DNA of 64,000 bases, from contig NZ_CANLZM010000011.1 of assembly GCF_947495565.1 (NCBI RefSeq), forward strand, positions 1-64,000, given 5' to 3'. Below, in pieces: positions 43,118 through 46,753 of this stretch. Position 1 is the stretch's first letter; each line of letters begins with the position of its first letter. Under the pieces are notes generated by a model. It saw only the letters and a program-made list of their open reading frames with translations, was not told the DNA's origin and searched no databases. The stretch comes from an uncultured Pontibacter sp. (lineage in GTDB: Bacteria > Bacteroidota > Bacteroidia > Cytophagales > Hymenobacteraceae). Made by a program: the position numbers and the translations under genes.

Positions 43118-43537
43118 ATGGAAATTACATCAAAGTTTAAAACTATAGGATTGGCTTTAGCATTAGGTTCTTTTATGTTTGCCTGTAGTCAGGAAACGCA
43201 GAATGAGACCAATGAAGAAGTAAATGAGGTGCAAACCGAAATGAGTGATGCCAACATGGAGGCAAGGTCTTCTTACGATGAGTTCGATGCCTGGGTAACC
43301 ACAAATACTGAACGTGCAGAGGCGGTAACTGAAGATGAGTACCGTGAGATGCGCACCGAATACAGACGCCGCGAAGCCGAGTTAGAAGCCGAATCTGCCA
43401 ACTGGGATGAGGAAACCCGCCGTGAGTGGGAAGAAACCAAAGCCGAATGGAATGATTTTGAAAACAAAGTACAGGAGCGTCTGGGTGAGATAGATGACGT
43501 AGACGTGGATGTAGACGTAAACCGTGAAAATAACTAG
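43118..43537 (+). CDS. acidic coiled-coil-like lipoprotein
   Basis: 139 residues. A signal peptide and lipobox (MFAC, Cys23) are followed by a highly charged helix: repeated E/R/W pairs such as EYRREMRT-like segments and WDEETRREWEETKAEW near 105. The tail is an Asp/Val repeat (DVDVDVDV). It looks like a surface or periplasmic helical lipoprotein of unknown role. A strong terminator follows. Confidence 0.6.
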   Translation: MEITSKFKTIGLALALGSFMFACSQETQNETNEEVNEVQTEMSDANMEARSSYDEFDAWVTTNTERAEAVTEDEYREMRTEYRRREAELEAESANWDEETRREWEETKAEWNDFENKVQERLGEIDDVDVDVDVNRENN

Positions 43538-43563: not shown

Positions 43564-43608
43564 AAAAAGCCGGGGCGCTGTAGTTTAACTGCAGCGCCCC
43601 GGCTTTTT
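43564..43608 (+). terminator. terminator of the acidic lipoprotein gene
   Basis: A 17-bp perfect stem (43564-43580 with 43592-43608) with an 11-nt loop and T-run. Confidence 0.9.
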
Positions 43609-43662: not shown

Positions 43663-44736
43663 TTAATAAGGGTTGGATAAGGCCTTGTTTTGCACAAAAT
43701 CCTCGTCTGTTAGGGTGTTCAGAAACAGGATAATCTTCTTTTTCTCTTCTTGTGTGATGGGGATGCCCAGATTGCCGTTCTGCTGCAGCTCCGGTGCCAG
43801 CGAGACTGACCAGGTTACGCCTGTGCGGTAATGATCCAAAACTTCTTCCAGCGTAGCAAAGCGACCGTCGTGCATGTAGGGTGCCGTTAGCTGGATGTTG
43901 CGCAACGTGGGAGTTTTATACTTGCCGATATCCTGCTGTTGCCGCGAAATGCGCCCTCGCCCAAAAGCCAGCGCTTCAAAATCTTCTGAATAAGTGCTGT
44001 CTAAACCGTTGTTATGGTAGCTATTGTCGGTGAAAAAATCTGTGGCGTGGCAGGAGGCGCAGTGCTGCTTGAATAAGGCCATACCTTGTAGCTCCTGCTC
44101 CGCCAGATGGCCCCCGCTCTCGCCGCGCACATACTTGTCGTATCGGGAGTTGGCGGAGATCAGGGTGCGCTGAAACTGCGCCAGCGCCTGCGCTACACGT
44201 GCCGACGTAATGGTGTCGGTGCCAAATGCCAGCCGGAACTGCTTTCGGTATTTCTCCTGGCTTTGCAGCTCCAAAACCAGCTCCTTTAAGTTCTGCCCCA
44301 TTTCGTCAGGGTGGGTTAGCGGCCCAAACGCCAACGATTCAATATCTTTTGCCCCGCCATCCCAAAACAAACCTTTCATCCATGCCAAGTTAATCAGAGC
44401 TGGCGCATGCCTCTTCAACTGCTTGCCGGATACACCTATACTTGTCAGGGCTTCTCCATCTGAGAAAGCTTTGTCTTGTTGATGGCAGCTGGCGCAGGAA
44501 AGCTCGTTGTTAGCTGACAGTACAGGATCGTAGAAGAGCATGCGGCCCAAAGTTACACCCTCCTCCGTAAACGGGTTGTGCTCCGGGTAAGGTACGGCTG
44601 TTGCTAAGTTGCCCGGCACTACAGGGCTAAAGCGCTTGGCTTGTGGCGCAGGTGCTTCGGCATCAGGCTCATTGCAGGCAGGCAATAGCAGCATGCTTAT
44701 ACTTGCAATTGTTATGTAGCGCAGCAGGTGCATCAT
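43663..44736 (-). CDS. di-haem cytochrome-c peroxidase family lipoprotein, MbnH-like
   Basis: 357 residues, lipobox LLPAC (Cys21). Two haem-c sites: CASCH at 81-85 and CASCH at 226-230. The C-terminal AFGRGR and PTLRNIQLTAPYMHDGRF are shared with CcpA/MauG/MbnH. Third gene of a cluster: after the MbnP-like gene, 146 bp away. MbnH enzymes oxidise a Trp of their MbnP partner to kynurenine and create a copper site. Here a second paralogue flanks the MbnP. I call this MbnH-like from context; a hydrogen-peroxide reductase role is the alternative. Confidence 0.88.
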   Translation of the reverse strand: MMHLLRYITIASISMLLLPACNEPDAEAPAPQAKRFSPVVPGNLATAVPYPEHNPFTEEGVTLGRMLFYDPVLSANNELSCASCHQQDKAFSDGEALTSIGVSGKQLKRHAPALINLAWMKGLFWDGGAKDIESLAFGPLTHPDEMGQNLKELVLELQSQEKYRKQFRLAFGTDTITSARVAQALAQFQRTLISANSRYDKYVRGESGGHLAEQELQGMALFKQHCASCHATDFFTDNSYHNNGLDSTYSEDFEALAFGRGRISRQQQDIGKYKTPTLRNIQLTAPYMHDGRFATLEEVLDHYRTGVTWSVSLAPELQQNGNLGIPITQEEKKKIILFLNTLTDEDFVQNKALSNPY

Positions 44737-44882
44737 CTTATTTCATAACCTAGATGAGTGTAACAAGAGCAAATAGTTTACTTTATGTGCGGAAGATGCA
44801 GGAGGCAACTATATATACTTTATAACGTGAAATGAACGCTAAGTCAGGAGGAGCATAGGCGACAAAAGTATTTTTCCGAAAC

Positions 44883-45629
44883 TTACTGCTTTACTTCCGT
44901 AATTTTCAGGAAGCCGTTGCTGTAGTTCTCTGCCATCATACTTGGGCCGGCACCATGGCCTCCGGAGTTCATCACATCGAAATCAATCAGGTTTGGCCCC
45001 TGAAACATTTCATTAACATCTGCCTGCAGCATTAGCTCCGGGTTAGTTTGTTTACGGAGGTCGATGGGCTGGGGAAGGTCCAAGGTTATAGTTTTGAAGT
45101 TGGCATCTCCACCTATATGAAACACCAGAAAACCGCTTTTGGTATCTCCTGTATAACTGCCCATCAGCGAAACAAACTTATAGCCCGTGTCCCAATCCCA
45201 AACCATTTCATTGCTCGGGTCCAGGTCTCCTTCCTGGTCGGTGGAGTGGTTGTGCGCCTCGTCCACGCCAATGGATAGCTCTATTTGGTTGTAAGTGTTT
45301 GCAGGAACATCTAGCAGCTCGAAAGCTAATTTGCCGTCCTGGCTAATCAGGTGGTAGCTTTCAGGCTCTATATAAACAGTTTGGCCGTTGCTGCCGATAA
45401 GCTTTACGTTGCTGATGTAGTACTTAAGGTCACTGACAGTGTAGGTGTCGCCTGCTGGGCTGGTATAGGTAGCATCGTTCAACTGTAGAGGTTCTGACCC
45501 TACTATGTGCTGAATGTTAACCTGTACTGTGCCCGCTTCTGGTACCTCATCATCGTCGTCGGAGCAGGCGGCTAGAAAAGGAAATGCCAACAGCAGCAAT
45601 ATAAATTTAAAAATTGTCGTCTTCTTCAT
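44883..45629 (-). CDS. MbnP-family lipoprotein, putative copper-binding partner
   Basis: 248 residues. Lipobox AAC (Cys22), then an Asp-rich linker and a beta-sandwich. The conserved centre is EMVWDWDTGYKFVSLMGSY at 141-159, with Trp144 and Trp146 as candidate targets, plus VSDLKYYISNVKL (65-77), GVDEAHNHS (121-129) and FHIGGD (170-175). It lies 8 bp after the second MbnH-like gene and so shares a transcript. In methanotrophs, MbnH converts a Trp of MbnP to kynurenine to make a copper site; here the pair sits without methanobactin genes. Confidence 0.85.
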   Translation of the reverse strand: MKKTTIFKFILLLLAFPFLAACSDDDDEVPEAGTVQVNIQHIVGSEPLQLNDATYTSPAGDTYTVSDLKYYISNVKLIGSNGQTVYIEPESYHLISQDGKLAFELLDVPANTYNQIELSIGVDEAHNHSTDQEGDLDPSNEMVWDWDTGYKFVSLMGSYTGDTKSGFLVFHIGGDANFKTITLDLPQPIDLRKQTNPELMLQADVNEMFQGPNLIDFDVMNSGGHGAGPSMMAENYSNGFLKITEVKQ

Positions 45630-45637
45630 GAAAGGTT

Positions 45638-46753
45638 TTATTTGAAAGGGTCTGAGAATTTTGGGTTAGCGATAAAGGTGGAATCGGTGAGGGTATGCAG
45701 AAAAGCTATGATTTTGCGCTTCTCTTCTTGGGTGATCAATAATGTTTTGCCGCCTACCTCGTTAGTGGCCTCAATAATCAACGGTGATAGATGAGGACTG
45801 TTATACTTGATGTGCTCATTATAATGGTCCAGCACTTCTTCTAGTGTGTTAAAGCGGCCGTCGTGCATGTAAGGTGCGGTGAGGGCGATGTTTCGGAGGG
45901 AAGGCACCTTGAACTTGCCGTTATCCACTTCTCTTCCTGTTACAGCTCCGTAACCCAAATCTGTCAATGTCTCGTCCAAGCCGTTGTTCTGCATCGTACG
46001 CATAGACAGCAGCGTGCCGCCGTGGCAGTCGCCGCAGTTGCCTCCGCGCAGGGCAATGCCAGGCTCCGGATGTGTCATAAACAGTTTCATGCCTTCCTGC
46101 TCATCCGGGGTAAGGGCCTGCTCTCCTGCCAGGTAGCGGTCGTAGCGGGAGTCGGCGGAGATGAGCGTGCGCTGAAACTGCGCCAGCGCCTTCAGTATAT
46201 TAGCCTCCGTTATAGTATCGGAGCCGAAAGCCTTCCGGAACATAGGCGGGTAAAGCGCTGTGTTCTGCAGTTTTTTTACGCCTTCAGCCAGTGGCTGGTG
46301 CAATTCCACCTCACTCTCGATCGGAATCCGGGCCTGCTCTTCAAGTGTTAAAGCGCTGCCATCCCAGTTATAGTTAAAAAACCAAAGCAGGTTGGCCAAC
46401 GACATGGCGTTGCGCCGGTGCTGATTGCCGTCTATGCCAACTGCCAGCGCCTTCCCGTCCGTAAAAGCCTTCTCCTGCTGGTGGCAGCTGCCGCACGACA
46501 TCGTGTTGTTGCCAGACAGCCTCTTCTCATAAAACAGGTGCCTTCCGAGTTCCACGCCATCTTTCGTCATGGGGTTGTCTTCAAAACGAGGATAGTTGTT
46601 GGTAAAAGTCTTTGGCAACTGCAGGGTGTATGGGGTAGGGTTAAATGGGTCAACAGGTTTCGGATCCTCTTCAGCAGCATTTTGGGAGCATGCAAAAAAG
46701 AGCAGGGTAAGAGGCAGCAGTAAAATTCTTCGGGAAGTATAGAAAGTATGCAT
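45638..46753 (-). CDS. di-haem peroxidase family lipoprotein, MbnH-like (second copy)
   Basis: 371 residues, lipobox FFAC (Cys22). Two haem-c motifs: CGSCH at 87-91 and CGDCH at 240-244. FDGR-type AFGSDT and the C-terminal SLRNIALTAPYMHDGRF are present. It is first in the cluster and has just 8 bp to the MbnP gene. Together with the third gene it brackets one MbnP. Sequence differs clearly from the other copy, so it is an old paralogue and not a fresh duplication. Role as above. Confidence 0.88.
   Translation of the reverse strand: MHTFYTSRRILLLPLTLLFFACSQNAAEEDPKPVDPFNPTPYTLQLPKTFTNNYPRFEDNPMTKDGVELGRHLFYEKRLSGNNTMSCGSCHQQEKAFTDGKALAVGIDGNQHRRNAMSLANLLWFFNYNWDGSALTLEEQARIPIESEVELHQPLAEGVKKLQNTALYPPMFRKAFGSDTITEANILKALAQFQRTLISADSRYDRYLAGEQALTPDEQEGMKLFMTHPEPGIALRGGNCGDCHGGTLLSMRTMQNNGLDETLTDLGYGAVTGREVDNGKFKVPSLRNIALTAPYMHDGRFNTLEEVLDHYNEHIKYNSPHLSPLIIEATNEVGGKTLLITQEEKRKIIAFLHTLTDSTFIANPKFSDPFK

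Follow-up and report, generated by a model that had tools for sequence, protein, structure and literature searches.

In Methylosinus trichosporium OB3b, adjacent genes encode MbnP (7l6g) and the di-haem enzyme MbnH (6e1c). MbnH reportedly reaches a bis-Fe(IV) state and turns the first tryptophan of a WxW motif in MbnP into kynurenine, which MbnP is said to need for holding Cu(I). In Methylosinus the first tryptophan alone is reported to be modified. MauG likewise oxidises tryptophan of a partner protein, in this case methylamine dehydrogenase, in the synthesis of tryptophan tryptophylquinone. Bacterial di-haem peroxidases are usually homodimers. Surface proteins whose Cu(I) site depends on kynurenine are also described in the systems MopE/SACCP of Methylococcus capsulatus and CorA/CorB of Methylomicrobium album, where the copper protein gene lies beside that of a single di-haem peroxidase (PMC3912023); these copper proteins are of a different sequence family from MbnP, and ligation by two histidines has been reported. 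The MbnP-MbnH system is described as a one-to-one pair, and in the open papers searched we found no report of a two-enzyme form, nor any biochemistry on a Bacteroidota MbnP or MbnH. The locus analysed here indicates that the usual pair of one enzyme and one protein appears to have a two-enzyme version.

The window, i.e. the whole stretch of DNA analysed, comprises 64,000 nucleotides from an uncultured Pontibacter sp. Its minus strand carries a cassette of three genes transcribed in the order PB, MbnP, PA. PB (45638-46753) encodes a di-haem lipoprotein of the MbnH/MauG type of 371 aa, and is followed after 8 bp by the gene for an MbnP-family lipoprotein of 248 aa (44883-45629), predicted to be a surface-exposed copper-binding protein. 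PA (43663-44736), a second di-haem lipoprotein of the MbnH/MauG type with 357 aa, is separated from MbnP by a gap of 146 bp (44737-44882); at three further loci of Pontibacter this gap measures 11-19 bp. All three products have a lipobox. Between PA and a convergent ORF encoding a small lipoprotein (43118-43537) there is a strong palindromic terminator-like stem of 20 pairs (43564-43608). A promoter scan gave no signal exceeding chance.

The assembly of 4.52 Mb is 99.97% complete. It contains exactly one MbnP gene and two CCP_MauG genes, all within the cassette. A search of the whole genome found no MbnB-family gene, the member of mbnA/mbnB/mbnC through which alone the presence of methanobactin biosynthesis was judged. 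The cassette shares with the Methylosinus pair the MbnP fold, a WxW motif accompanied by conserved Met and His residues, and a di-haem enzyme with two CxxCH motifs, an inter-haem Trp and a MauG-type Tyr encoded by an adjacent gene. It differs in having two enzymes from separate clades rather than one, in lacking methanobactin genes, a TonB receptor and a regulator, and in that all its products are lipoproteins. An earlier note, made from the sequence, had placed one MbnP between two clearly diverged di-haem peroxidases, with Trp144 and Trp146 in MbnP and no methanobactin biosynthesis genes nearby. The positions and tryptophans are as it gave them, the Pfam families agree with its assignments, the divergence is real (47-48% identity between PA and PB, which fall in separate clades), and the lack of an MbnB relative extends to the whole genome.

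MbnP matches Pfam MbnP PF20243 at 9.7e-48, with a score of 163 bits where the cut-off is 27. Its score of 58.5 bits with NCBIfam TIGR04052 (MbnP_like_WxW) is beneath the curated cut-off of 140, so it belongs to the family broadly defined rather than to the curated equivalog. A PDB search with the single sequence gave no match and an alignment profile was required; the profile matches 7l6g at 6.2e-8, although the aligned identity to 7l6g is only about 14%. An AF2 model built from a 50-sequence alignment has a mean pLDDT of 91.8, and its best Foldseek matches are the six chains of 7l6g (E 2e-7 to 1e-5, probability 1.00, TM ~0.53), with the next unrelated match at only 6e-4. The fold predicted for MbnP is therefore that of 7l6g.

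The WxW motif is W144-D145-W146 (codons at 45192-45200, minus strand) and aligns with the WNW of 7l6g, placing the expected kynurenine site at W144. Conservation marks His171 (45117-45119, minus strand) as a candidate copper ligand. Among 153 MbnPs, W144 is conserved in 97%, W146 in 86%, His171 in 97% and Met142 in 84%, and His171 is invariant in the 50-sequence alignment. The mature protein has no tryptophans besides W144 and W146, and the same holds for all six Pontibacter MbnPs, which rules out a conserved extra tryptophan as a second target. With just two tryptophans in MbnP, the outcome of a mass-spectrometric analysis should be unambiguous.

After the lipobox Cys, MbnP reads SDDDDE. This equals the SDDDD consensus of the Bacteroides fragilis surface-export signal, which is functional in Capnocytophaga (PMC5080379). 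PA (C-NEPDA) and PB (C-SQNAA) have no such acidic lipoprotein export signal past the lipobox Cys. MbnP is therefore probably displayed outside the cell, with the two enzymes facing the periplasm, and on that arrangement its maturation would precede export.

Both enzymes match Pfam CCP_MauG (PA 2.2e-61, PB 2.1e-56), and for both the closest PDB relative by sequence is MbnH 6e1c (PB 3.7e-59, PA 9.6e-50). Scores with NCBIfam TIGR04039 are 259 bits for PA and 289 for PB, both beneath the curated MbnH cut-off of 363. The AF2 model of PB (pLDDT 90.6) has 6e1c_A as its top Foldseek match (E 2.3e-28, TM 0.79), ahead of the bacterial peroxidases and MauG, with the next protein at E 8.7e-22. MbnH is thus the closest solved relative of both enzymes by sequence and of PB also by predicted fold, MauG being more distant in each of these comparisons.

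Both enzymes retain their haem and catalytic residues. PB has the haem motifs CGSCH (residues 87-91, 46481-46495) and CGDCH (residues 240-244, 46022-46036), with inter-haem Trp130, Glu150 and Tyr311. PA has CASCH twice (residues 81-85, 44482-44496, and 226-230, 44047-44061; all four motifs on the minus strand), with inter-haem Trp125, Glu145 and Tyr303. Alignment with Methylobacterium MauG gives equivalents of its W93, P107, E113 and Y294 in both. The position of MauG Q103 is Gln140 in PB, a glutamine shared with MbnH, and Leu135 in PA, a substitution that may alter the high-valent chemistry of PA. Substitution rates point to purifying selection on all three genes. Where dS could be estimated, dN/dS is ~0.1-0.2 for PB and MbnP; for PA dS is saturated in most comparisons, and pN is 0.17-0.26 compared with pS of 0.70-0.84.

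In trees of the di-haem enzymes from MbnP loci, PA and PB fall into separate well-supported clades. Each of these includes a Marivirga member from a locus with the order enzyme, MbnP, MbnP, enzyme. The two clades are old, so a recent tandem duplication of the peroxidase is rejected. The PA clade is sister to a large clade that provides the usual single enzyme downstream of MbnP in Bacteroidota, and the PB clade is centred on the Hymenobacteraceae.

The earlier note proposed a survey of synteny in Bacteroidota, and implied that the arrangement was unique. The latter is incorrect. MbnP is present in 101 genomes of a random draw of 392 from Bacteroidota, and at 16 of the 124 MbnP loci read, two same-strand MbnH-like genes lie within 4.5 kb. 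Several of these (e.g. L066, L075, L091 and L120) combine clades otherwise than Pontibacter does, so such loci probably arose more than once. The order found in the cassette, with MbnP between the two enzymes, is confined among the loci read to Hymenobacteraceae and, with two MbnPs, Marivirga.

We then consider inheritance of the three genes. Fifty genomes of the genus were surveyed. MbnP with at least 52% identity occurs in 15, PA-type with at least 56% in exactly those 15 and PB-type with at least 62% in 14 of them (Fisher p 1.6e-11). The single MbnP-bearing genome lacking PB-type (G519) holds no more of MbnP than a truncated fragment, which probably lies at a contig end. One further genome (G513) has a different MbnP, 30% identical, and the remaining 34 have none of the three genes. 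Gene order varies, with two MbnPs between the enzymes in two genomes and the order PA, PB, MbnP in two. Six Pontibacter loci have no flanking genes in common, so it is the cassette alone that is conserved. As it is kept or lost whole by the genus, it provides a small and genetically simple system.

The association extends to the family. Among 150 Hymenobacteraceae genomes, 95 with MbnP and 55 without, PB-type is present in 92 of the former and two of the latter (odds ratio 813, p 3e-34). PB-type genes lie immediately upstream of MbnP in 21 cases, immediately downstream in 11, farther away on the same strand in 50 and elsewhere in 16. In 14 MbnP-bearing Hymenobacteraceae genomes PB-type is the sole MbnH-like match (E <= 1e-30), and every MbnP read from genomes with PB-type only retains the first motif Trp. 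Taken with the usual role of the sister clade of PA, this means that each line accompanies MbnP alone somewhere. The suggestion in the earlier note that both enzymes are tied to the single MbnP is upheld by this and by the all-or-nothing inheritance in the genus. That both serve the MbnP module is well supported, but co-inheritance is evidence of shared function and not of the same substrate.

We consider that the cassette probably constitutes an MbnP-MbnH system that is self-contained and has two enzymes, in which PA and PB act on MbnP and W144 is converted to the kynurenine of a copper site. Of the readings considered, we judge action of both enzymes on MbnP the likeliest. All three proteins are lipoproteins of the cell envelope. 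With their di-haem centres in a high-valent state, PA and PB would oxidise MbnP by hole transfer, W144 would become kynurenine, and MbnP would then be able to bind Cu(I), before its display at the surface. The two enzymes would not be redundant copies, given their old and separate clades, the occurrence of each line (for PA, its sister clade) as sole partner elsewhere, and the retention of both by the genus. They may act one after the other, on different tryptophans, under different conditions or as a heterodimer. Points against this reading are the scores of all three proteins beneath the curated NCBIfam cut-offs, the Leu of PA at the Q103 position, and the lack of copper-linked neighbours and of the accessory proteins common at other loci.

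The earlier note suggested that two enzymes for one substrate could give two modifications or two redox inputs. A possible but rather doubtful variant is that two non-redundant enzymes have different tasks on the one MbnP, such as formation of kynurenine at W144 and a second, hitherto undescribed modification, of W146 or another residue. If the two enzymes make distinct modifications, the result would be a protein-derived copper site of a new type.

Alternatively the contribution of one enzyme to the module could lie in dealing with H2O2 or in electron transfer. In the specific form that we regard as unlikely, the kynurenine is made by one enzyme, most likely PA. PB would then be a peroxidase linked to the module that leaves MbnP alone and serves to remove or meter H2O2 or to supply oxidising equivalents. 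The positions of the genes favour such a division. The sister clade of PA is the usual sole downstream partner of MbnP, an enzyme of the PA/C type, where present, comes immediately after MbnP at almost every locus read, and some PB-type genes of Hymenobacteraceae are 2-10 kb from MbnP or on another contig. Yet the 14 MbnP-bearing genomes noted above have PB-type as their sole MbnH-like enzyme, and PB itself shows the inter-haem Trp and Tyr ligand characteristic of MauG and MbnH, with a predicted fold nearest to MbnH. These observations argue for the reading in which PB also acts on MbnP.

The possibility of two modifications was explored further by comparing the second Trp of the motif with the type of adjacent enzyme. 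Enzymes were typed by the residue at position 117 of PB, 13 residues ahead of the inter-haem Trp. In Bacteroidota this is Met in all 63 B-clade enzymes and Pro in all 15 of the A clade, and two-enzyme loci nearly always combine one Pro-type with one Met-type. We reject the residue as a functional rule, as Trichormus and Ideonella each combine a single MbnH of the Met type with an intact WxW, and the tree requires six or more changes of the residue.

At Bacteroidota loci the second Trp is kept in 101/101 cases with Pro-type (PA-like) enzyme only and 46/47 with both types, but in 19/33 with Met-type (PB-like) only and 6/21 with no adjacent enzyme. Locus L093 is the one exception to a link between loss of W146 and a missing Pro-type enzyme. 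A rule that W146 is lost only without a Pro-type enzyme was nevertheless rejected, since there are only about eight changes on the tree and an independent-pairs test is not significant. Outside Bacteroidota, moreover, single Met-type enzymes accompany an intact WxW. The relation between loss of the second Trp and enzyme type is confounded by descent, and is a lead rather than a result.

It is therefore improbable that one enzyme converts W144 to kynurenine and the other modifies W146, giving a new kind of site. The counts just given and the restriction of tryptophan to W144 and W146 in all six Pontibacter MbnPs would suit such a scheme, but single-enzyme systems keep WxW too, including those with Met-type enzymes outside Bacteroidota, and the Methylosinus protein is reportedly modified at its first Trp only. 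A PA-PB heterodimer, in which one subunit carries out catalysis and its partner accepts electrons or provides a docking site for MbnP, would be in keeping with the usual dimeric state of bacterial di-haem peroxidases and the retention of both genes in one cassette, but is very improbable given that each enzyme type is found alone with MbnP elsewhere.

The cassette could be used to ask how MauG-like enzymes select a tryptophan, and whether the oxidation of tryptophan to kynurenine can be divided between enzymes. It also bears on the copper-related role of MbnP proteins outside methanotrophs.

Some MbnP relatives depart from the WxW motif. In three (L087:6917-7687, L090:6920-7696 and L092:6920-7681) that adjoin an MbnH-like enzyme, the first motif Trp is replaced by Phe (FNVPxM), so the target of the enzyme there cannot be that Trp. 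MbnPs of the Hymenobacter type without an adjacent MbnH have WxM instead of WxW (L170, L174-L179, L220, L222, L223, L227, L231, L236 and L237), and several of these genomes carry a PB-type gene elsewhere. In one genome (G394) the PB-type gene (L190:3222-4324) appears to be split into two overlapping frames, by a frameshift or an assembly error.

The usual Bacteroidota operon resembles the cassette in having MbnP followed by an MbnH-type lipoprotein, and differs in having one enzyme and often two accessory genes that are absent from the cassette. Upstream there is a small membrane protein with the motif CVN..P..C.G.C.L in 64 MbnP loci (e.g. L126:6405-6785), and downstream a barrel-like protein starting ACDICGC in 53 (e.g. 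L126:8824-9825). Representatives of both had no match in a Pfam/NCBIfam scan, and the ACDICGC protein was not found anywhere in the genome carrying the Pontibacter cassette. Near MbnP in other Bacteroidota we also find SCO1-type genes at 10 loci (e.g. L055:4979-5704) and genes for YtkA-domain lipoproteins at 17 (e.g. L081:8812-9666), neighbours that are consistent with a copper role; such copper-linked genes are likewise absent at the cassette. Lastly, three MbnH enzymes (L241:3432-4592, L242:3351-4502 and L243:3270-4541) are publicly annotated as 'methanobactin export MATE transporter MbnM', evidently a misnaming that is spreading across phyla.
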